Of a stretch of DNA of 64,000 nt, positions 50,146-59,971 are shown piece by piece. This DNA is from Bacteroidota bacterium. Its GTDB lineage: Bacteria > Bacteroidota > Ignavibacteria > Kapaibacteriales > UBA2268. The stretch is taken from assembly GCA_004322215.1 (NCBI GenBank), contig SCSM01000007.1, forward strand, positions 1-64,000. The letters are read 5' to 3'. The position numbers were made by a program, and so were the translations under genes. The notes below the pieces were generated by a model. The model searched no databases, was not told the origin of the DNA, and saw only the letters and a list, made by a program, of their open reading frames with translations. Numbering within the stretch: position 1 is the first letter of the stretch; each line of letters begins with the position of its first letter.

Positions 50146-52824
50146 TTAATTAACGCCTATCAACTCCACTTCAAAATAAACTTTTGTATCAGGAGGTACT
50201 TTCCCTTCCAATCCTGAATGTCCGTAAGCCAGTTCAGACGGCACTTCAAGCACTCTCTTACCTCCAACTTTCATTGTCAATAATCCTTCATCGAATGCTT
50301 TGATTACTTCTCCTTTTCCAACTACAAATGATAATGGTTTGCCTGATGCTAAAGTTTCTTCGAATTTCGTACCGTCTGATAAGTATCCCTTATAATGAAT
50401 TGTTACTTTCTGATTTTTCTGTAACGGCTCCCCATTCCCAATAACTATATCCTTGAATTTTAATCCCGATGGAGTTGTTCTGAAATCTTCCCTGACAAAA
50501 TTCATAGGAAAGTCTTTATCATCAATTTTAAATTGTACAGGTACGCTGACCCAGCATACAACTGCCTTCCCATTAGATTCTGCAGGTGTGAATTCAGCTT
50601 TTTCCACTGCATCTTTTGCCGCATTGTCAAGTAAAGAATTATCAGAATATTCAATTAAAGATTTTTCAACTTTTCCATCTTTGCCTATCATTGCTCTTAT
50701 CTGTACTTTTCCTTCGATAACCAAAACTCTCGCAATTTCCGGGTAAACAATATTCTTTTTCAAAGCTTCCAAATCTATTTCGGGTCGCTTGTCGAAAGCT
50801 ACATAATCATAAGGACCGGGGTCTCTGTCACTTGTTTTTCTCTCAGTCGGAATAAGCGGATTATCAACTTCACTTTCGGTTTTCACCATGCTTTTTTGCA
50901 TCAATTTTGGTGCTGCTCCCAGATTCCCTCTGCCAACAGCAAAATCGGTAACATCTTCGGGCATTGGTAGTGGCTGCTGAACTTTTACCAAAGAATCTTT
51001 ATTCCTCGAAATATAATCCACTGCAACAAATGAAGTAAAATTTGTCAAAAGATTATATTTCAAACCTAAATCCGTAATTTCATTTTTTCTTGCTTCCTTG
51101 TTCCTAATGGAATTGTAATCTGAAATAATTGCAATTTTATTTCTTGCCCAAAGATATTTAAGTGCATCCCCTTGTGTCATTGTTGAAAATTTTTGAACAC
51201 CAATATCTACTTTATATCTTGTATCACCTGAAATACCTGTTACAATTATGTTTCCAGTTGGATGTCCCATCCATTTCCCGTAAACAAGAATGGGCCTTTC
51301 TGCAAGAACATCGGGAATAGACAGCGGCTCAACATCATAAGTCATAAATCCGTCATATTCTACTTTTATATCAGTCATCACCGGCGATTCAATATATTTC
51401 CTGAATTTATCAACCGTAGCATCCTTATCCTCATATTTTGTGATAATAAACGGTTCTCCCATTCCAACCCTTGCCAATCCTTCAATCAAAAACCTGTTCA
51501 CACTGCTGCCGATTCCAAACGCAAAAACATTGCTTTGGTTCAATTTACTCCTTATTAAATCAAATGCTTCTTCTTCGACATCAACAAATCCATCGGTTAG
51601 AATTACTATCGTTCTTGATTTTCCTTGTTCTTTTGGTAAATCAAATACCCTCTTCAATGCAGGAAGTAGCTCTGTTCCTCCGTACCCTTTCTGTGCATTG
51701 ATAAAATCAATTGCCTTTTGAATATTTCTTTCCGATACATCAATCGAATATTCCGATAAAACTTCATTTCCGCCTGAAAACAGCAGCACATTAAATTTCT
51801 CTCCCTGTTTCAGATTTCTTAATAACTTTTTCATCATGTCTTTTGAAATGTCAAGTGGCTTTCCGTGCATTGAGCCGGATACATCGATTACGAAAACAAA
51901 TTCACGTGGAGGTATCTGCTTCGGCTCTACCCTTTTTGGTGGTTGTAGCATTAACAGAAAGAAATTCTCTTTATCATTTTCTGAGAGCAATAATCCTGAC
52001 TGTATTTTATTACCGGTTAATCTGTACTTCAAAATATAATCCCTGTTTCCACCTTTTTTCTCTGTTTCATTTAAAGTAATGAATGACTGAACAGGACTGA
52101 TTTTTTCAATATTCACATTATGGGTTTTACATTCAACATCATCCAATGGTACAGCAGATGCAATATTGACTTTTACATCAAACAAATAAGTGGGTTTTTC
52201 TCCCTCGTGCTGATAAGGTGTTTCGACAAACCTGTCTCCGGGCTTTGATGAATCTGAAGATTTATTTGAGTATCTTGGTCCGACAACAGAAGGATATACA
52301 AATTCATAAATTCCATCTGTAGGAATTAGAAGTTCGGTGTACTTTAATTCAACAATTATCGTATCTCCGGGCATTATATTCCCGACATTCATCTGGAATA
52401 CATTCGGTCTTTGCTGCTCAAGAAGTGAGGCACTCTTTCCTTCTTTTAAAGCTTTCTCATACGTCTTACGTGCTTCTTCTTTCTTTTGTATTTCAGCTAC
52501 CAGAATACGTTCTCCTATTGTCATTGTCATACCATATACTGCAGCACGAGTCGAAGCAGGAAATATATATATCGCTTCAATCGGTTTCTTGCCTGTGTTT
52601 CTATAAACCTGTATTACCTTCACATCAGCAATAACACCTGCTATATTTACATCTGCAGATGTTGATAATAATGGTAACTGCTCGACAGATGAATCCCCGC
52701 TCTGAACAAAGAAATAGGGAGACAATGTTTTGTCATCCTGATTTTCGATTAACTGAGTATTTTGTGCATAAGATTTAGTAAGGAATGCACTTAATATTGC
52801 AAGCAAAAAAAGAAGCTTTTTCAT
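50146..52824 (-). CDS. VIT and von Willebrand factor A protein fused to TonB_C and FKBP domains
   Basis: An 892-residue exported protein with four recognisable parts in order. After a signal peptide is a VIT domain (about 40-180; SADVNIAGVIADVKVIQVYR, QQRPNVFQMNVGNIMPGDTI). The vWA domain (about 305-480) has an intact MIDAS start (FVFVIDVSGSMHGK, near 312) and TIVILTDGFVD. A TonB C-terminal-like domain follows (about 680-765; NIVYPEIARVLVIEGKVQIR, AAKDAVEKAEFTPAES). The end is an FKBP-type peptidyl-prolyl isomerase (about 785-892; VTIHYKGYLSDGTKFEETLA, GGKRVLEVPSELAYGHSG). GGAG precedes the ATG. VIT-vWA proteins occur widely, but this fourfold combination is unusual. A periplasmic scaffold or folding role is a guess. 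Confidence 0.92.
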   Translation of the reverse strand: MKKLLFLLAILSAFLTKSYAQNTQLIENQDDKTLSPYFFVQSGDSSVEQLPLLSTSADVNIAGVIADVKVIQVYRNTGKKPIEAIYIFPASTRAAVYGMTMTIGERILVAEIQKKEEARKTYEKALKEGKSASLLEQQRPNVFQMNVGNIMPGDTIIVELKYTELLIPTDGIYEFVYPSVVGPRYSNKSSDSSKPGDRFVETPYQHEGEKPTYLFDVKVNIASAVPLDDVECKTHNVNIEKISPVQSFITLNETEKKGGNRDYILKYRLTGNKIQSGLLLSENDKENFFLLMLQPPKRVEPKQIPPREFVFVIDVSGSMHGKPLDISKDMMKKLLRNLKQGEKFNVLLFSGGNEVLSEYSIDVSERNIQKAIDFINAQKGYGGTELLPALKRVFDLPKEQGKSRTIVILTDGFVDVEEEAFDLIRSKLNQSNVFAFGIGSSVNRFLIEGLARVGMGEPFIITKYEDKDATVDKFRKYIESPVMTDIKVEYDGFMTYDVEPLSIPDVLAERPILVYGKWMGHPTGNIIVTGISGDTRYKVDIGVQKFSTMTQGDALKYLWARNKIAIISDYNSIRNKEARKNEITDLGLKYNLLTNFTSFVAVDYISRNKDSLVKVQQPLPMPEDVTDFAVGRGNLGAAPKLMQKSMVKTESEVDNPLIPTERKTSDRDPGPYDYVAFDKRPEIDLEALKKNIVYPEIARVLVIEGKVQIRAMIGKDGKVEKSLIEYSDNSLLDNAAKDAVEKAEFTPAESNGKAVVCWVSVPVQFKIDDKDFPMNFVREDFRTTPSGLKFKDIVIGNGEPLQKNQKVTIHYKGYLSDGTKFEETLASGKPLSFVVGKGEVIKAFDEGLLTMKVGGKRVLEVPSELAYGHSGLEGKVPPDTKVYFEVELIGVN

Positions 52825-53008: not shown

Positions 53009-54136
53009 ATGAAAGTAGGAAAAGAATATTACAGAACAATATGGAAAGATGAAAATAAGCCAGGTGTTATTAATATAATTGACCAGAGATGGCTCCCTCA
53101 CAAATTTATAATTGAAACTCTGAAAAGTGTAGATGATGTCACAAAAGCAATTCAGGAGATGCACGTACGAGGTGCACCCCTGATTGGAATAACTGCTGCT
53201 TATGGATTATACATCTCATCTATCGAGGGGAAAAAGAAAGGTTTTAATAAAAAATACATTTTCGATTCTGCCGAAAAAATCAAATTAACAAGACCAACAG
53301 CTAAAAATCTGTTCTGGGCTCTTGATGAGATGTTATCCTCAATCTCAGGATTAGATAATATCGATGAAATCATTCATACAATTCGAATTAAAGCAAAAGA
53401 TATGGCTGACAAAGATGTTGCTGATTGCAAATCAATCGGTGAACATGGTTTTAAAATAATTGAAAAATTAGTAAAGAATAAAAGTAGGGGCATAGAATCT
53501 TATGCCACTACAATGAATATATTAACCCACTGCAATGCCGGCTGGCTTGCAACTGTTGACTACGGTACAGCATTAGCCCCATTATACATTGCCCGGGAAA
53601 GAGGTTTAAAGATTCACGTTTGGGTAGATGAAACAAGACCGAGGAACCAGGGGGCAAAACTCACAGCATGGGAATTAACTGAAAATGGCATTCCGAATAC
53701 AGTTATAGTAGATAATGCAGGCGGGCATTTAATGCAGAAGGGAATGGTTGACCTTGTCATCGTCGGAAGTGACAGAACAACCGCTTCGGGGGATGTCGCA
53801 AACAAAATCGGGACATACCTGAAAGCTCTCTCAGCTTATGATAATAATATTCCTTTTTATGCTGCTCTCCCCTCTTCCAGTATTGATTGGGAAATCGAAA
53901 ATGGAGAGGATATCCCGATTGAAGAAAGAAATCCGGATGAAGTGCGATATGTTAACGGATTATATAAAAATGAGATTGTAAATGTATTGATACCACCTGA
54001 ATCAAGCCCTGCTCTAAATTACGCATTTGATATAACGCCTGCAAGATTAGTAACTGGCTTAATCACAGAACGAGGAATCTGCAAAGCAAATAAAGATAGC
54101 ATTGCTGAATTATTTCCAGATAAAATAAAAAAGTGA
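53009..54136 (+). CDS. mtnA: methylthioribose-1-phosphate isomerase
   Basis: A 375-residue cytoplasmic isomerase converting 5-methylthioribose-1-phosphate to 5-methylthioribulose-1-phosphate in methylthioadenosine recycling. Family motifs are clear: MHVRGAPLIGITAAYGLYIS, LTHCNAGWLATVDYGTALA with Cys175, and GSDRTTASGDVANKIGTY with Asp255. These two residues match the catalytic pair known in the B. subtilis enzyme. It is the first gene of a pair with a class II aldolase-like gene three bases downstream. The upstream gene is divergent. Confidence 0.96.
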   Translation: MKVGKEYYRTIWKDENKPGVINIIDQRWLPHKFIIETLKSVDDVTKAIQEMHVRGAPLIGITAAYGLYISSIEGKKKGFNKKYIFDSAEKIKLTRPTAKNLFWALDEMLSSISGLDNIDEIIHTIRIKAKDMADKDVADCKSIGEHGFKIIEKLVKNKSRGIESYATTMNILTHCNAGWLATVDYGTALAPLYIARERGLKIHVWVDETRPRNQGAKLTAWELTENGIPNTVIVDNAGGHLMQKGMVDLVIVGSDRTTASGDVANKIGTYLKALSAYDNNIPFYAALPSSSIDWEIENGEDIPIEERNPDEVRYVNGLYKNEIVNVLIPPESSPALNYAFDITPARLVTGLITERGICKANKDSIAELFPDKIKK

Positions 54137-54139
54137 AAC

Positions 54140-54727
54140 ATGAGTGAAGGTGTAATAAAATTTAATTGTAAATGGATTAAGGATAAACCTCTACAGCTAA
54201 GTCTGCTTAATGATATTATTCACTGGAGAAATCATTTATTCGCTCTTAACTTTATTGGTATTGGTCAAGATGGTATTGGTTATGGTAATATCAGCATTAG
54301 ATATAAGTCTAATCAATTTATCATCAGCGGCTCGCAGACAGGGAATAAAGAAATAGCAGATGAAAATGATTTCACACTTGTTACTTTTTTTGCTCTTGAA
54401 AAGAATTTAATTCATTGCAAAGGTCCTGTTCAGGCATCATCTGAATCATTAACTCATGCTGCAATTTATTCTGCCTGTGAAGAAGCAAATGCAGTTTTAC
54501 ATATTCATAACTTGAAAATATGGAATGAGCTTAAGAATAAAATTCCGACAACACCTGAATATGCAGAATATGGTACATCCGAACTGGCAAATGAAATAAT
54601 AAAATTATTTGAATCTTCTGATATTATTAAGCATAAAATTCTCGTGATGGGAGGACATCCCGAAGGGATAATAAGCTTTGGAAAGAACTTGGAAGAAGCA
54701 TTTCAAATTCTGGAAAAATATATGTAA
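54140..54727 (+). CDS. class II aldolase/adducin-family protein, MtnB- or Ald2-like
   Basis: A 195-residue metal-dependent protein starting three bases after mtnA. It has the class II aldolase fold signals: YGNISIRY, SGSQTG (phosphate site), SSESLTH with Glu102 at the proton-acceptor position, the zinc pair His121 and His123 (LHIHN), and a third His173 (GGHPEG). Next to mtnA, two functions are possible. It could be the methylthioribulose-1-phosphate dehydratase MtnB of the methionine salvage pathway, or a methylthioribulose-1-phosphate aldolase that yields DHAP and methylthioacetaldehyde (DHAP shunt). The sequence is divergent from both; I cannot decide. No other mtn genes are nearby. Confidence 0.82.
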   Translation: MSEGVIKFNCKWIKDKPLQLSLLNDIIHWRNHLFALNFIGIGQDGIGYGNISIRYKSNQFIISGSQTGNKEIADENDFTLVTFFALEKNLIHCKGPVQASSESLTHAAIYSACEEANAVLHIHNLKIWNELKNKIPTTPEYAEYGTSELANEIIKLFESSDIIKHKILVMGGHPEGIISFGKNLEEAFQILEKYM

Positions 54728-54730
54728 TAT

Positions 54731-56119
54731 TTACTTCCTGTACTTTGAAATAAATTCCTCAACTTCAGGAATACCACCCTGATAAATAAGGTAGCCGTTG
54801 CTTGGCTCTCTTTCGGTTATATCATGCGAAATTGGGGTTAACATTATTTTCTTTACTTCATCAAGGTCATTTGATTGGCCCAAAGCCCAGCAAAGTTTCA
54901 TATATGCAACTTCCGGAAGCATGTTTGCGGTAGGAACTACACCAAGCTCCATCATATCCCTGCCAGTATCGTAAACGTACATCTGAACATATCCCCAAAG
55001 TGTTTGAACAGTCATATAAACTGCTATGTTTTTATCCTTGGCTCTTTGCAATGATGGATAGAGCGGCTTATTGACATGTCCCAAGCCGGTACCGGCAATA
55101 ACGATACCCCTGTAATCATTATCAATAAGTGAATCTATAATATCCGGTTTCATATTTGGATAATAGTAAACGATTGCTACTCTGTCATCAAAAGCAGTGT
55201 TGATAATGACATTTTTATCATTTCTTCTCTTATTGTAATCTTTTCTTAGAGGTGTAATTTTTTTCCTGTCAACCATTGCAATAGGAATGTCACCGATTGT
55301 TCTGAAAGTAGAACGGTAACTCGAATGCATTTTTCTCAATCTCGTACCCTGATGAAGCAGTCCATAACTATCTGAGGTTGGACCAAACATACATACCATA
55401 ACTTCAGCAATGTCACTCTCGGCAGCAGTTTTAACGCTGTGCATAAGATTCAATGCCGCATCCGAAGAAGGTCTGTCGCTCGAACGCTGGGAGCCAACCA
55501 TAACAATCGGTACCGGAGAATTCTGTACCATGAATGAAAGAATTGCAGCAGTATGGTGCATTGTATCGGTTCCATGTCCGATTACAATACCCTGCACGCC
55601 TTTTTCAATTTCATTTCCAATGGCTTTAGCTAATCCTTTCCATTGTTCGGGACCCATGTTCTCACTGAATACACCATAAAGCTTTTCAGTTTCAAGATTG
55701 CATATATCCGCAAGCTCGGGTACAGAACCATAAAGTTCCCCCGGAGAAAAAGCGGGAATTACCGCACCTGTGCGATAATCCAGGCGACTTGCAATTGTTC
55801 CTCCTGTACCTAAAAGTTTCACTCTCGGCTTTTTCGGTGAGTATGGAAATTCTTTTTCGGGTATTTTATATTCAATTTCTTTTCTTCCGTTAACTTTAAT
55901 ATTTGAAATTTTGTTTGCGGCGAGACCGATATTATAACCAGACCTTAATTTCAATACAATATGATTCGGGTCAGCTGTTTCAGAACGCGGTAAAATAATT
56001 CCAATAAAATCACCATCAGATGTGCTGACTTCAACGTCGCACCAAATCATCGCATTAAACTTTTTAAGTGTTTCGAATGATTTTCCTTTATAACCTTTAT
56101 ATAATTCTTTATCTTCCAT
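54731..56119 (-). CDS. gatD: archaeal-type Glu-tRNA(Gln) amidotransferase subunit D
   Basis: A 462-residue asparaginase-like subunit that releases ammonia for amidation of Glu-tRNA(Gln). An N-terminal AnfO/SH3-like domain (about 1-85), typical of GatD and absent from plain asparaginases, precedes the two asparaginase domains. The catalytic set is complete: Thr108 (LLGTGGTIAS), Thr184-Asp185 (GHGTDTMHHT) and Lys263 (TRLRKMHSSY). Other GatD blocks include SYGLLHQGTR and GTGLGHVNKPLYPSLQRAK. It starts two bases after gatE, whose end carries GGAAG as ribosome binding site. GatD is normally archaeal, so its presence next to bacterial ffh and rpsP is striking. A plain L-asparaginase is unlikely given the N-terminal domain and gatE. 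Confidence 0.93.
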   Translation of the reverse strand: MEDKELYKGYKGKSFETLKKFNAMIWCDVEVSTSDGDFIGIILPRSETADPNHIVLKLRSGYNIGLAANKISNIKVNGRKEIEYKIPEKEFPYSPKKPRVKLLGTGGTIASRLDYRTGAVIPAFSPGELYGSVPELADICNLETEKLYGVFSENMGPEQWKGLAKAIGNEIEKGVQGIVIGHGTDTMHHTAAILSFMVQNSPVPIVMVGSQRSSDRPSSDAALNLMHSVKTAAESDIAEVMVCMFGPTSDSYGLLHQGTRLRKMHSSYRSTFRTIGDIPIAMVDRKKITPLRKDYNKRRNDKNVIINTAFDDRVAIVYYYPNMKPDIIDSLIDNDYRGIVIAGTGLGHVNKPLYPSLQRAKDKNIAVYMTVQTLWGYVQMYVYDTGRDMMELGVVPTANMLPEVAYMKLCWALGQSNDLDEVKKIMLTPISHDITEREPSNGYLIYQGGIPEVEEFISKYRK

Positions 56120-56121
56120 TT

Positions 56122-58041
56122 TTATCTTCCAAAATTCCGGGATTTGACATATTCATACACTTCATTACCATTAATCCTTAAACGTAAATGATTCATCATC
56201 TTACCCATTACAATCTTTTCTCTTTTCTCTTCTTTTATAATTTTAATCCCTTTTAATTCATCTTTGACCGATTTGTAAACATCCTCCAATTCTTTTGTTG
56301 AGCATGGTTCAGCTATCAGTTCATTTGAATATCCATTATTCGATATTATTTTTTCAAGCAAAGCCAAAATCGAATCTTTAACTATTTTATTTTCTTTGTA
56401 AAGCTCAAATACTTTAAGAAAATCATTTTCACTAAGTAAGTCGGTATCCAATTTTTTTCGTTTTAATCTTTTTGGATATTGAATCAATACCATGCCTGCA
56501 AATTTAGATTCTAATTTCATTTCTTTGATGCATTTATCAAATAACCTGACAAACTTCGAACCTGATAAATCTCTTCTTAAATCTTTTGGTACACTAATTT
56601 CCTCAAACCATTTTTCATACTCCCAGTATGGTTTGATGAGACCGGACCTAATAGTATCCAGCCGTTCTTTTGTAACTTTTTTCGGAGGTAAATCAGTGTC
56701 GGGATACATCCTGTCCGGACCGGGAAGAATTCTTTCAAAGCCGGTTGTACCGTCACGAAGTGCCTGTCTTGTTTCCGAAGGTACTCCTATAGTTGCCTCT
56801 CTTGCTCTGATTACAATTTCATTTGCTCCCATTTCGGAATCCTGCTGATTTCCCCAGACTATCACTAACGTATCATCATCGGTTGCTCCTACTGTCTTTC
56901 TTATCTTCAAGCCCTCTGAAGTTGATAATGTATTTTCTGCACTATCGGAATGAATTATATTTGGTAATGTTGTTAAACAAGCAATTACTCTTACCCTATC
57001 GGAAAATTCTTTTGAGAAATAAGTATCAGTCTGGGTTTTCCTTGTGAGTATTCCTTTGAAACCCCTGAGAGTAACACATTTCACGAACATGCCCTCTTCG
57101 ATTGCCTTGCTTATTGGCTGATAATATGTTTTTCTCAACAATTTCGTTATATCATCAATCCTATATCCGAATGAATCCTGAGTTATTCCTCTTTTATGCA
57201 GTTCTTCTCTGATTCTTAACAGGTTCCATTGCCTCATTGCCTCATTATAAGTCAGCAGAGGAATTCTTTTAATGCTGGGAACACCTTTTATTTCAATTCT
57301 TGTTCCGCCTGTAACACTGACGTTAACATCTTCTCTTCCAGCACCAACCCCGGTTCTTACTTTGCCAGTACACCTCGAAAGCCGGCGGATGATGTCATTG
57401 ACTTCAGCTACCTCAAAAGGAGTCTTCATATCAGGATAAGTAACTGTTTCAATAAGAGGCATACCAAGCCGGTCAGCAATATATACCCTTTTATGACCAA
57501 CATCTGACGCTTCCCTGCATGAATCTTCTTCGATTGACATCTGAATTAACCTTATTTCACGGGTTTTATAAGGAATTGCACCACCGACTGAAACAATTGC
57601 TGTCCTTTGGAACCCAGTTGGAATGCTGCCGTCGAGATACTGCTTTCTTGCTATGTGCATTTCATCTACAATTTTCGATTTGGTCATCAAAGCAATTTCC
57701 AGGGCAATATCGAGCGCCTGCTCATTGATTTGAAACGGTGGTGTGTCATCCATTTCGTAAGTACAAACAGTGTCATGATGTATCCTGTAAATAATATCTT
57801 TTTTTGTTTTAAATTCCATCAGAGCTGTGCCGTCGTACTCACCCAATTCGGACAGTGTTGGTCTCATGTGTCTTAATATTTCGGCATCATAATCTTTACT
57901 GTATAATCCGGCAGGGCATCTGCAAAACAATTTATGGTTAGTCAGTAATTGCTGGTGAACTTCCAAACCCGACATAAACCCGACACGGGCATAATCACCG
58001 GGTGTCATCTCTTCAAAAGTTTTAAATTCGAAATCGTACAT
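56122..58041 (-). CDS. gatE: archaeal-type Glu-tRNA(Gln) amidotransferase subunit E
   Basis: A 639-residue kinase/transamidase subunit that phosphorylates and amidates Glu-tRNA(Gln) using ammonia from GatD. The GatB-like core is clear: GFMSGLEVHQQLLTNHKLFC, FQINEQALDIALEIALMTKS, MHIARKQYLDGSIPTGFQRT, QMSIEEDSCREASD, and TGVGAGREDVNVSVTGGTRI. The insertion specific to GatE, a GAD-type domain related to bacterial AspRS, spans about 340-425. The block FERILPGPDRMYPDTDLPPK follows. The C-terminal helical/YqeY-like tail reaches the end. These features separate it from GatB. No ribosome binding site is evident before the ATG. gatD follows after two bases. A weak hairpin lies between rpsP and this gene. 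Confidence 0.94.
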   Translation of the reverse strand: MYDFEFKTFEEMTPGDYARVGFMSGLEVHQQLLTNHKLFCRCPAGLYSKDYDAEILRHMRPTLSELGEYDGTALMEFKTKKDIIYRIHHDTVCTYEMDDTPPFQINEQALDIALEIALMTKSKIVDEMHIARKQYLDGSIPTGFQRTAIVSVGGAIPYKTREIRLIQMSIEEDSCREASDVGHKRVYIADRLGMPLIETVTYPDMKTPFEVAEVNDIIRRLSRCTGKVRTGVGAGREDVNVSVTGGTRIEIKGVPSIKRIPLLTYNEAMRQWNLLRIREELHKRGITQDSFGYRIDDITKLLRKTYYQPISKAIEEGMFVKCVTLRGFKGILTRKTQTDTYFSKEFSDRVRVIACLTTLPNIIHSDSAENTLSTSEGLKIRKTVGATDDDTLVIVWGNQQDSEMGANEIVIRAREATIGVPSETRQALRDGTTGFERILPGPDRMYPDTDLPPKKVTKERLDTIRSGLIKPYWEYEKWFEEISVPKDLRRDLSGSKFVRLFDKCIKEMKLESKFAGMVLIQYPKRLKRKKLDTDLLSENDFLKVFELYKENKIVKDSILALLEKIISNNGYSNELIAEPCSTKELEDVYKSVKDELKGIKIIKEEKREKIVMGKMMNHLRLRINGNEVYEYVKSRNFGR

Positions 58042-58075
58042 ATATAATGTTTTACTTTATTCAATCAACCATGTA

Positions 58076-58107
58076 AATACAAAAGAAACCAAATAAGAAA
58101 TTTGGTT
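58076..58107 (-). terminator. possible weak terminator between rpsP and gatE
   Basis: Eight-bp A/T-rich stem AACCAAAT / ATTTGGTT with a 5-base loop (58087-58107), followed on the minus strand by TCTTTTGT. It begins 25 bp after the rpsP stop. The stem is weak, so partial readthrough into gatED is plausible. Confidence 0.45.
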
Positions 58108-58131
58108 CTTATTTATTATTCTTACTCATTT

Positions 58132-58590
58132 TTATTCTGCGGATTCGGCTTTCACTTCTGGCTCAGCCGGAGTTTCGGTTTTTTTCTCTGCTTCTTTCTT
58201 TGCCGCTTCTGCTGCTTTTTCCTTATCGCTTACCTTCTTTTTGCGTAAATCTTTTCTTCTGAAATATCTTGCCTTTGCAACTTCTTTATGAAGTTTCACA
58301 GCTTCCTCTATTTCTACCTGGTTACTGCCTTTCATAGCCATATATTTTCTGAGCAAAATTCCTTCGTAGCTCAAAAGATTTCTTACGAGGTTTGTCGGCT
58401 GTGCACCCACACTCAGCCAATAAACTGCCCTGTCCGGGTCAATCGAAATTACCGATGGCTGATGATGAGGGTCATAATAGCCCAATCTTTCTATAAATGC
58501 ACCGTCGCGTTTTGCTCTCTCGTCGATTGCGACAATGTCATAAACGGGGTGATGAACACGCCCTTTTCTTCTTAATCTTAATTTTACCAT
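58132..58590 (-). CDS. rpsP: 30S ribosomal protein S16
   Basis: A 152-residue S16. I start at the ATG at 58590 (MVKLRLRRKGRVHHPVYDIV) with AAGGTT just upstream. The open frame reaches to 58662, but those residues overlap the end of ffh and do not match S16. The S16 core covers about 1-85 (DGAFIERLGYYDP, YWLSVGAQPTNLVRNLLS). Beyond it lies a charged Lys/Glu/Ala tail, as often seen in Bacteroidota-type S16. It follows ffh by 43 bp. In most bacteria rimM, trmD and rplS come next; here they are absent and gatE follows. Confidence 0.97.
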   Translation of the reverse strand: MVKLRLRRKGRVHHPVYDIVAIDERAKRDGAFIERLGYYDPHHQPSVISIDPDRAVYWLSVGAQPTNLVRNLLSYEGILLRKYMAMKGSNQVEIEEAVKLHKEVAKARYFRRKDLRKKKVSDKEKAAEAAKKEAEKKTETPAEPEVKAESAE

Positions 58591-58633
58591 TTTTAACCTT
58601 AATAATTTATAAATAAATAATAATTTTTTATTT

Positions 58634-59971
58634 TCACCTGTTAAAGCCCTTAGGCATGCCAAGCCCCTGGAGTAATTTCATTTTATTGCCACGTGCAAAA
58701 TTCTTCATCATCTTATTCATTTCTTCGAATTGTTTCAGCAGCCGGTTGACTTCCTGAATAGTATTACCGCTTCCGTCAGCTATTCTCTTTCTTCGCGAAC
58801 CATTCAGAATTTTCGGATTGTTCCTTTCTGATTTTGTCATTGAAAGTACAATCGCTTCTACTTTTGAAAAATTCTTTTCATCAACATTCACACCCTTTAA
58901 TGCTTTGTCCATTCCCGGCAGCATACCTAACAAATCCCTGATGGAACCCATCTTTTTTATAGTTCTCATCTGCTCGAGAAAATCATCGAATGTGAACTGA
59001 TTTTTCCTGAGCTTTTCTTCAAGCTTCTGTGCCTGTTTCTCATCAACTTCCAACTCTGCTTTTTCGACAAGAGTGAGAATATCACCCATTCCGAGTATTC
59101 TCGAAGCAATTCTTTCGGGATGGAATGGTTCGAGTGCATCAAGCTTTTCCCCCACACCAACATATTTTATCGGTTTTCCGACAACAGAAAGTACGGATAA
59201 TGCCGCACCGCCTCTTGTGTCTCCGTCAAGCTTAGTAAGTATTACTCCTGTTAGATTCAATCTCTCGTGGAATGCCTTTGCAGTCGTTACCGCATCCTGT
59301 CCAATCATCGCATCAACAACGAAAAGAGTTTCAGTCGGTTTCACAGCATCTGAGATTTCAACAACCTCTTTCATCATCTCTTCGTCAATCGTCAAACGAC
59401 CGGCAGTGTCTATGATGACAGTATCTCTTGCAAATCGCTTCGAATAATTAATTGCTTCGGTTGCTATTTTAATCGGATTAGTGCTGTCATACGCAAACAC
59501 AGGCAATCCCGCAGACTGCCCAAGCTGTTTCAACTGGTCAATAGCCGCCGGACGGTGAACGTCGCATGATACTAATAACGGCTGTCTTCCCTTCTTCCTC
59601 AGTGATTTTGCCAGCTTTGCACAGAATGTCGTCTTACCCGAACCCTGCAAACCGGCAACAAGAACAACTGTCGGAGGATGTGGCGAAAAGACAAGGTCTG
59701 CCCGCTTATTTCCCATGATTTCGACAAGTTCGGAATGAACTAACTTTACAATTACCTGTTCGGGTAAAAGTGTTCCTTTTACTTCTGTTCCGATTGCTTT
59801 TGTCTTTACATTTTCTACAAACTGACGAGCTACATTCAGATTGACATCCGCTTCGAGCAAGGCACGGCGAATCTCTCGCATTGCCTCCTCGATATTATCT
59901 TCTGTTATAGTTGCCTGACCGCGAAAACGCTTCAGAGCTAATTCAAGTTTTTCTGTTAAACTTTCAAACAC
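58634..59971 (-). CDS. ffh: signal recognition particle protein Ffh
   Basis: GTPase of 445 residues that binds signal sequences and the SRP RNA. It has the N domain (MFESLTEKLELALKRFRGQA), the G domain with GLQGSGKTTFCAKLA (G1), DTAGR and TKLDGDTRGGAALS, and the M domain with MGSIRDLLGMLPGMDK and ERNNPKILNGSRRKRIADGS. The C-terminus is basic (GNKMKLLQGLGMPKGF). The start is GTG at 59971 with GGATGACG upstream. It is the first gene of the run ffh-rpsP-gatE-gatD. Confidence 0.97.
   Translation of the reverse strand: MFESLTEKLELALKRFRGQATITEDNIEEAMREIRRALLEADVNLNVARQFVENVKTKAIGTEVKGTLLPEQVIVKLVHSELVEIMGNKRADLVFSPHPPTVVLVAGLQGSGKTTFCAKLAKSLRKKGRQPLLVSCDVHRPAAIDQLKQLGQSAGLPVFAYDSTNPIKIATEAINYSKRFARDTVIIDTAGRLTIDEEMMKEVVEISDAVKPTETLFVVDAMIGQDAVTTAKAFHERLNLTGVILTKLDGDTRGGAALSVLSVVGKPIKYVGVGEKLDALEPFHPERIASRILGMGDILTLVEKAELEVDEKQAQKLEEKLRKNQFTFDDFLEQMRTIKKMGSIRDLLGMLPGMDKALKGVNVDEKNFSKVEAIVLSMTKSERNNPKILNGSRRKRIADGSGNTIQEVNRLLKQFEEMNKMMKNFARGNKMKLLQGLGMPKGFNR

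Follow-up and report, generated by a model that had tools for sequence, protein, structure and literature searches.

A bacterial gatE-gatD gene pair of the GatDE amidotransferase family and its proposed role alongside GlnRS

Why would a bacterium that encodes a full-length glutaminyl-tRNA synthetase (GlnRS) also carry gatE and gatD, the two genes of the amidotransferase GatDE? The question is raised by a 64,000-nucleotide stretch of DNA (the window) from a Bacteroidota bacterium of the class Ignavibacteria, order Kapaibacteriales (contig SCSM01000007.1, assembly GCA_004322215.1). A 2022 review states that GatDE is nowadays confined to archaea (PMC9499178). An earlier note on the window recognized the pair and proposed a transfer between domains that may have replaced GatCAB for glutamine and altered Asn-tRNA formation. 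Here, we ask whether the two genes are GatD and GatE, what they may do beside GlnRS, and how they came to be in bacteria.

Identity and conservation of the two subunits

The pair and its domains are located in the window as follows (aa, amino acids).

56122..58041, minus strand: gatE, 639 aa, Glu-tRNA(Gln) amidotransferase kinase/transamidase subunit, from profile, Pfam, and structure matches
54731..56119, minus strand: gatD, 462 aa, GatDE glutaminase subunit, starting 2 bases past gatE
55892..56035, minus strand: GatD_N domain, GatD residues 29-76 (Pfam PF18195, E = 4.7e-14)
54734..54814, minus strand: C-terminal extension of bacterial GatD, residues 436-462 (78% mean pairwise identity over 83 bacterial loci)
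56887..57171, minus strand: GatE insertion, residues ~291-385, interrupting the GatB_N domain (limits approximate)
56140..56544, minus strand: GatE tail, Pfam GatB_Yqey, residues 500-634, poorly conserved

Both open reading frames (ORFs) are complete, with zero internal stops and a spacing of 2 bases, as the earlier note had described. Identity was scored against NCBI equivalog models using their own bit-score cut-offs. GatD reached 517 bits with NF003217 (cut-off 310) and 510 bits with TIGR02153 (cut-off 324), and GatE reached 530 bits with NF003107 (cut-off 456) and 460 bits with TIGR00134 (cut-off 319.6). In contrast, GatE scored far below the cut-offs of GatB models (best, 138 bits against a cut-off of 338; TIGR00133 gatB, 126 against 314.8). 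For GatD, the best other family was type I asparaginase (390 bits), itself above its own cut-off of 260.5. In Pfam, GatD comprises GatD_N plus two asparaginase domains, and GatE comprises GatB_N and GatB_Yqey, a YqeY-type tail. The GatB_N match spans residues 24-461 even though the model has only 277 positions, which bears out the claim of a GatB-like core carrying an insertion; the insertion is presumably GAD-like. The nearest solved structures by sequence were the archaeal GatDE of Pyrococcus abyssi (1zq1) and Methanothermobacter thermautotrophicus (2d6f), with E values of 6e-96 for GatE and 1.6e-119 for GatD. Archaeal GatDE also occupied ranks 1 to 3 by fold for both predicted models (mean predicted local distance difference test score, 74 for GatD and 79 for GatE). 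Thus, an asparaginase-fold GatD with GatD_N and a GatE with GatB-like core, insertion, and YqeY-type tail, both over their cut-offs, make up the same two-subunit architecture as in archaea.

Conservation was measured as pairwise identity over 83 bacterial loci, window included, plus the two archaeal chains. GatD T108, T184, D185, and K263, the set singled out by the earlier note, were identical in 83/83 bacterial loci and both archaeal structures. The same was true of GatE E27, H29, E171-E172-D173, E198, N240, and K252, which we take to be metal- and ATP-site positions. Across the bacterial loci, mean identity was 78% for GatD (lowest pair, 66%) and 59% for GatE. Within GatE, however, the N-terminal catalytic part averaged 76% and the tail (residues 481-639), presumably the tRNA-binding part, 28%; therefore, the chemistry appears to be held tightly while the tail varies. 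The distances of GatD and GatE were correlated (r = 0.77, compared with at most 0.24 in 500 permutations). Wherever both genes were found, gatE came first and gatD followed on that strand, in 68/68 loci of other records and 20/20 of the window's class. The C-terminal extension of bacterial GatD is missing from both archaeal chains and includes a helix at residues 451-459, in a low-confidence region of the predicted structure. One class member, L102 (genome G156), encodes a GatE far more divergent than the rest (44% identity to the window, end branch 2.5), while its GatD is 70% identical.

Two other assignments were considered and rejected. A stand-alone L-asparaginase would lack GatD_N, which is present here, and the GatD models outscore the type I asparaginase model, although the latter still passes. 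Membership in GatCAB was set aside given the low GatB scores and the content of the genome: a genome search (GatC not searched) detected no GatB except GatE itself, and no amidase-family protein was found by a search that was positive in 12/14 control genomes. With no amidase-family protein there is no GatA, so GatB and GatA are both absent, which supports the earlier note on this point. Taken together, sequence comparison supports identification of the pair as GatD and GatE rather than an asparaginase and a GatB.

Routes to Gln-tRNA(Gln) in GatDE-bearing genomes

The window's genome encodes two class-Ic synthetases, a GlnRS of 559 aa and one bacterial glutamyl-tRNA synthetase (GluRS) of 486 aa, and three class-IIb synthetases, a bacterial-type AspRS, LysRS, and AsnRS. 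The GlnRS is full length (TIGR00440, 783 bits; cut-off 426), so GatDE is dispensable as the sole route to Gln-tRNA. Because AsnRS is also present (TIGR00457, 485 bits; cut-off 343), Gln and Asn each have a direct route. These enzymes lend no support to the replaced glutamine route or the altered Asn-tRNA formation that the earlier note had proposed. The genome carries two tRNA-Gln (UUG and CUG), both of which have U1:A72 and G73 as read from their sequences.

We moderately favor a reading in which gatE-gatD belongs to a separate bacterial GatDE branch that works beside GlnRS, amidating Glu-tRNA(Gln) that arises from imperfect discrimination by GluRS. The activity, the tRNA substrate, and the incomplete discrimination are all putative, and the chemistry is taken from archaeal GatDE by homology. 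GatD would hydrolyze glutamine to free ammonia, which would move to GatE; GatE would use ATP to activate the glutamate of Glu-tRNA(Gln), yielding Gln-tRNA(Gln). The substrate would be supplied by a GluRS that incompletely separates tRNA(Glu) from tRNA(Gln). Most Gln-tRNA(Gln) would be made directly by GlnRS, with GatDE acting as a parallel or repair route.

Companion enzymes were scored in 67 GatDE-bearing genomes, 22 of the window's class and 45 reached through loci of other records; in a few of them, GatE alone was seen, with gatD beyond the contig end or not nearby. GlnRS was found in 53/67 (20/22 in the class and 33/45 of the others, the latter being 32 above cut-off plus a fragment below cut-off in G323). 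GatB was found in 34/67 (16/22 and 18/45, the latter being 17 above cut-off plus a split GatB in G319). Both enzymes were present in 26 genomes, GlnRS only in 27, GatB only in 8, and neither in 6. AsnRS exceeded its cut-off in 44/46 class genomes examined, including 20/22 GatDE-bearing ones. A separate observation concerns G308, where a GlnRS C-terminal fragment (C1:3598641-3598940; 91 bits, model positions 428-524) lies on a 3.8-Mb contig and no full GlnRS match was seen; the fragment is possibly a relic or a recycled domain.

These counts bear on whether GatDE could supply most Gln-tRNA(Gln), as it does in archaea, with GlnRS secondary or reserved for one tRNA-Gln isoacceptor. The strong conservation of GatD and the catalytic part of GatE would suit such a role, as would G318 (locus L180), which has GatDE and two GluRS and in which neither GlnRS nor GatB was found. 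However, G318 is a metagenome-assembled genome (MAG) without a completeness figure, the window's GlnRS is full length and over its cut-off, most GatDE-bearing genomes encode GlnRS, and the two tRNA-Gln are alike at U1:A72 and G73. We therefore consider a main-route function quite unlikely.

Within the window's order, the enzymes are distributed in a pattern suggestive of stepwise change, in which GatDE and GlnRS would have been gained and GatCAB lost, the direction being presumed. GatB is accompanied by a single GluRS, without GlnRS or GatE, in five genomes (G109, G279, G023, G027, and G043) and by GatE, again without GlnRS, in G287. In G160, G196, and the window's genome, GatE and GlnRS occur together and GatB is lacking. 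In the class, GatB was missing from 6/22 GatDE-bearing genomes versus 2/51 without GatDE (Fisher p = 0.008). If GatDE covers for glutamine what GatCAB covers in relatives, GatCAB could therefore be lost.

The six order members that have GatB and lack GlnRS (the five above and G287) need a nondiscriminating GluRS for that reason. The window's GluRS shares one clade with the GluRSs of five of these six genomes (SH-aLRT [Shimodaira-Hasegawa-like approximate likelihood ratio test] support, 100). Two GluRS paralogs were detected in 7/45 GatDE-bearing genomes of other records: four of them (G320, G322, G326, and G329) encode GlnRS but lack GatB, G327 encodes both enzymes, G330 encodes GatB and lacks GlnRS, and the seventh is G318.

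Several observations weigh against the proposed repair or parallel role. The host tRNA-Gln carry U1:A72, and the identity pair of archaeal GatDE, A1:U72, is absent. The 6/67 genomes without GlnRS and GatB include 4 that show no class-Ic synthetase and are incomplete, leaving G318 and G321, which is likewise a MAG without a completeness figure; none of the 67 genomes establishes GatDE as its sole route. The GatB-loss test counts related genomes, which are not independent, and 27/51 of its GatDE-less genomes were judged only by GatE-model matches; among those tested directly, the comparison is 6/22 versus 2/24. In class genomes G009 and G140, GlnRS suffices without GatB and without GatDE. The five GluRSs of GlnRS-less genomes form their own sub-clade (support, 98), with the window's GluRS outside it, and G271 and G128, which lack GatDE, likewise contain two GluRS-type frames (one of them short in G128). 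Finally, position 358 of GluRS (Arg358 in T. thermophilus numbering), which we take to have a role in tRNA discrimination, is Arg in 18/18 class GluRSs, including the five that are necessarily nondiscriminating; therefore, sequence cannot settle discrimination, and calling it from this residue was rejected. Of 18 copies from other phyla that extend to this residue, 11 have Arg and 7 have His, Lys, Tyr, Asn, or Glu; two further GluRS fragments stop short of it. Nothing is drawn from these residues. In six genomes of Aminicenantes and kin (G298, G299, G300, G301, G303, and G304), the class-Ic model aligns to GluRS as two segments within one frame, with ~50 model positions skipped and only 9 to 21 bases between the segments, a deletion in the catalytic domain.

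Bacterial GatDE might instead have been repurposed for another aminoacyl-tRNA or for a metabolic reaction outside Gln decoding, a reading to which we give limited but appreciable weight. It would accommodate the frequent coexistence with GlnRS and, in the class, with AsnRS, as well as the divergent GatE tail and the conserved GatD extension. gatD is missing from 12 loci. Eight of these stop close to gatE; the other four (L171, L175, L195, and L197) have 1.7 to 5 kb of downstream sequence in which no gatD was found, as repurposing might allow. Nevertheless, the catalytic residues are unchanged in both subunits. Moreover, no metabolic gene is a steady neighbor, nor was any other steady neighbor hinting at function detected: apart from gatE and gatD themselves, the most frequent clusters were present in 12 and 11 loci out of 101.

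How, then, does a parallel or repair route compare with known systems? Relative to archaeal GatDE, the pair has a bacterial host, a GatE only 32 to 33% identical, and an extra conserved stretch at the GatD C terminus. GatCAB and GatDE perform the same chemistry, and GatB has the catalytic and tail domains of GatE. In GatCAB, however, the glutaminase is the amidase GatA, of a family absent from the window's genome, and GatB sequences form a separate clade. GatCAB in GlnRS-bearing genomes can serve Asn. Genomes of group 1|+|+, with GlnRS and GatCAB, similarly combine direct and indirect enzymes (PMC3927822), but here the partner is GatDE. That survey covers GluRS, GlnRS, and gatCAB in 366 genomes, and the term "GatDE" appears 0 times in its main text. 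Archaeal GatDE recognizes the D-loop of its tRNA. According to the 2022 review, GlnRS is absent from all archaeal species, archaeal GatDE recognizes A1:U72 of tRNA(Gln), co-evolution of GatDE and tRNA(Gln) explains why archaea never adopted GlnRS, and bacteria may stem from a population of the last universal common ancestor (LUCA) with GatCAB alone (PMC9499178). In contrast, the bacterial pair mostly resides with GlnRS, and the host tRNA(Gln) has U1:A72; absence of GlnRS from the host is a trait of archaeal distribution, not a property of the enzyme, and does not hold in the window's genome or in 53/67 of the genomes surveyed.

The presence of a conserved GatDE across numerous bacterial phyla, usually with GlnRS, directly contradicts the archaea-only statement of that review and bears on its arguments for GatCAB-only ancestry and GlnRS exclusion. 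Among the publications listed, none on bacterial GatDE was found by title or abstract opening, in a search with most subscription papers and bioRxiv preprints outside it; PMC8709496 had no occurrence of the terms sought. In the literature searched, as far as its text was available, no description was found of GatDE as a dedicated Glu-tRNA(Gln) repair or translation quality control enzyme. Automatic annotation may well already carry the GatD and GatE names for bacterial genes. Genomes with GlnRS, one or two GluRS, GatDE, and no GatCAB allow testing of whether GlnRS cells need a glutamine amidotransferase; the repair reading, if true, would amount to GatDE-based translation quality control.

Distribution and age of bacterial GatDE

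In a phylum sample of 296 genomes, 73 of them in the window's class, the GatE cut-off was passed by 22/296, every one inside that class (22/73). By rank, these were 4/5 of the window's family (window included), 0/20 of the rest of the order, and 18/48 of the rest of the class. Among named genomes, at least 590 stretches were matched by a scan, 566 of which were confirmed by tblastn at E 1e-3 (not all are claimed to be bacterial GatE), and the best 80 loci were kept. All 80 were bacterial by title. Phylum was readable for 61 (12 phyla), the other 19 having no phylum rank: Ignavibacteriota, 19; Bacteroidota, 14; Planctomycetota, 9; Acidobacteriota and Calditrichota, 4 each; Chlorobiota, 3; Latescibacterota and Fidelibacterota, 2 each; and Aminicenantota, Gemmatimonadota, Cloacimonadota, and Krumholzibacteriota, 1 each. 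Two scans of viral contigs detected no relative. On plasmids, 29 records matched, the best being one archaeal GatE with a frameshift; the other matches, among 20 listed, had 31 to 41% query coverage, and the named features were gatB. The frameshifted archaeal gatE lies at ~4001-5870 of L222, Natrinema thermotolerans plasmid CP031304.1, where the PLSDB table lists no gene.

A GatE tree was built from 99 bacterial GatE, 3 archaeal (all euryarchaeal) GatE, and 6 GatB rows by a quick search with no bootstrap; L169, L177, and L199 (<560 aa; 3/101 GatE rows) were dropped beforehand. The archaeal GatEs clustered together (SH-aLRT, 100) at the end of a long branch, 3.3 changes per column, and the GatB rows formed their own clade. 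The bacterial GatEs lay apart from the archaeal rows. The rows nearest the window's GatE were titled Ignavibacteria and then Kapaibacterium. Bacterial GatEs grouped loosely by phylum, with exceptions: Planctomycetota fell together, and Aminicenantes fell mainly into two clades. With the root open, L190 is unplaced; because it sits at the root with zero length, the bacterial rows need two changes.

The tree speaks against recent acquisition from the euryarchaea sampled. A recent archaeal gatDE transfer into this single lineage could be suspected from the family models, since the top ones are named for archaeal GatD and GatE. However, identity to the two archaeal chains is low (GatE, 32 to 33%; GatD, 45 to 48%, compared with 52% and 58%, respectively, between those chains), relatives occur in many bacterial phyla, the archaeal rows stand apart on their long branch, and the guanine-plus-cytosine (GC) content of gatD (0.39) and gatE (0.38) falls inside the 0.26 to 0.43 range of seven neighbors. 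We regard such a transfer as very improbable. The earlier note was sound in what it observed, two intact genes for GatD and GatE, and its interpretation is supported in part: GatB and GatA are absent, but glutamine replacement, altered Asn-tRNA formation, and a private transfer between domains are not supported.

Two older origins fit the tree: an enzyme shared by both domains from early on, or a transfer long ago from an archaeon outside the sample. More specifically, GatDE may be old and common to both domains, with a deep bacterial branch persisting beside GlnRS as a Glu-tRNA(Gln) repair enzyme whose recognition shifted from A1:U72 to U1:A72; the lineages named for this branch are Ignavibacteria-Kapabacteria, Calditrichota and neighbors, Phycisphaerae, and Aminicenantes and related. 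This scenario is tentative, and we would bet against it in its full form.

Locus integrity and neighboring genes

Upstream of gatE, the window contains the following features.

58042..58131, minus strand: rpsP-gatE gap of 90 nucleotides, with a hairpin and then a T-rich stretch, a possible terminator (z = -1.2, not significant)
58132..58662, minus strand: rpsP (30S ribosomal protein S16) ORF, kept in L122, L123, and L145
58634..59971, minus strand: ffh, kept in L122, L123, and L145

Model matches of the flanking ORFs confirmed that the neighboring genes are bacterial. The order ffh-rpsP-gatE-gatD is shared with two other assemblies, L122 (GatE, 88%; GatD, 95% identity) and L123 (78% and 91%), so the contig is not chimeric, a concern that the earlier note had itself raised. 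Completeness of the genome is 96.7%, and its contamination value is 0.01. No point in favor of an assembly chimera or contamination was found, and we assign this explanation a negligible probability.

gatED also follows ffh-rpsP in L145, and by eye the gaps ahead of gatE in L122, L123, and L145 are hairpin-rich too. A single operon of gatED with ribosomal protein genes was considered and dropped: given the hairpin and T-rich tail in the 90-nucleotide gap, co-transcription with rpsP is not claimed. In L122, dnaB also lies upstream. In the window, mtnA, together with an aldolase-like gene of class II (weak mtnB/fucA matches), converges on gatD from 53009-54727 on the plus strand; both recur on the opposite strand in L122, directly downstream, and in L123, ~2.4 kb further along. 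At 50146-52824 on the minus strand, an odd 892-aa fusion combines, in this order, a marine sortase-target match (TIGR03788, below cut-off), a TonB C-terminal domain, and an FKBP-type prolyl isomerase.

Elsewhere, a ~288-aa frame with ankyrin-like repeats (by eye) lies beside or between gatE and gatD in L086, L094, and L130. A 447-aa PhoH-like protein with a PIN domain (by eye) is encoded near gatE in 12 loci (L086, L088, L090, L091, L093, L094, L130, L131, L133, L134, L136, and L200), on the same strand in 11/12.

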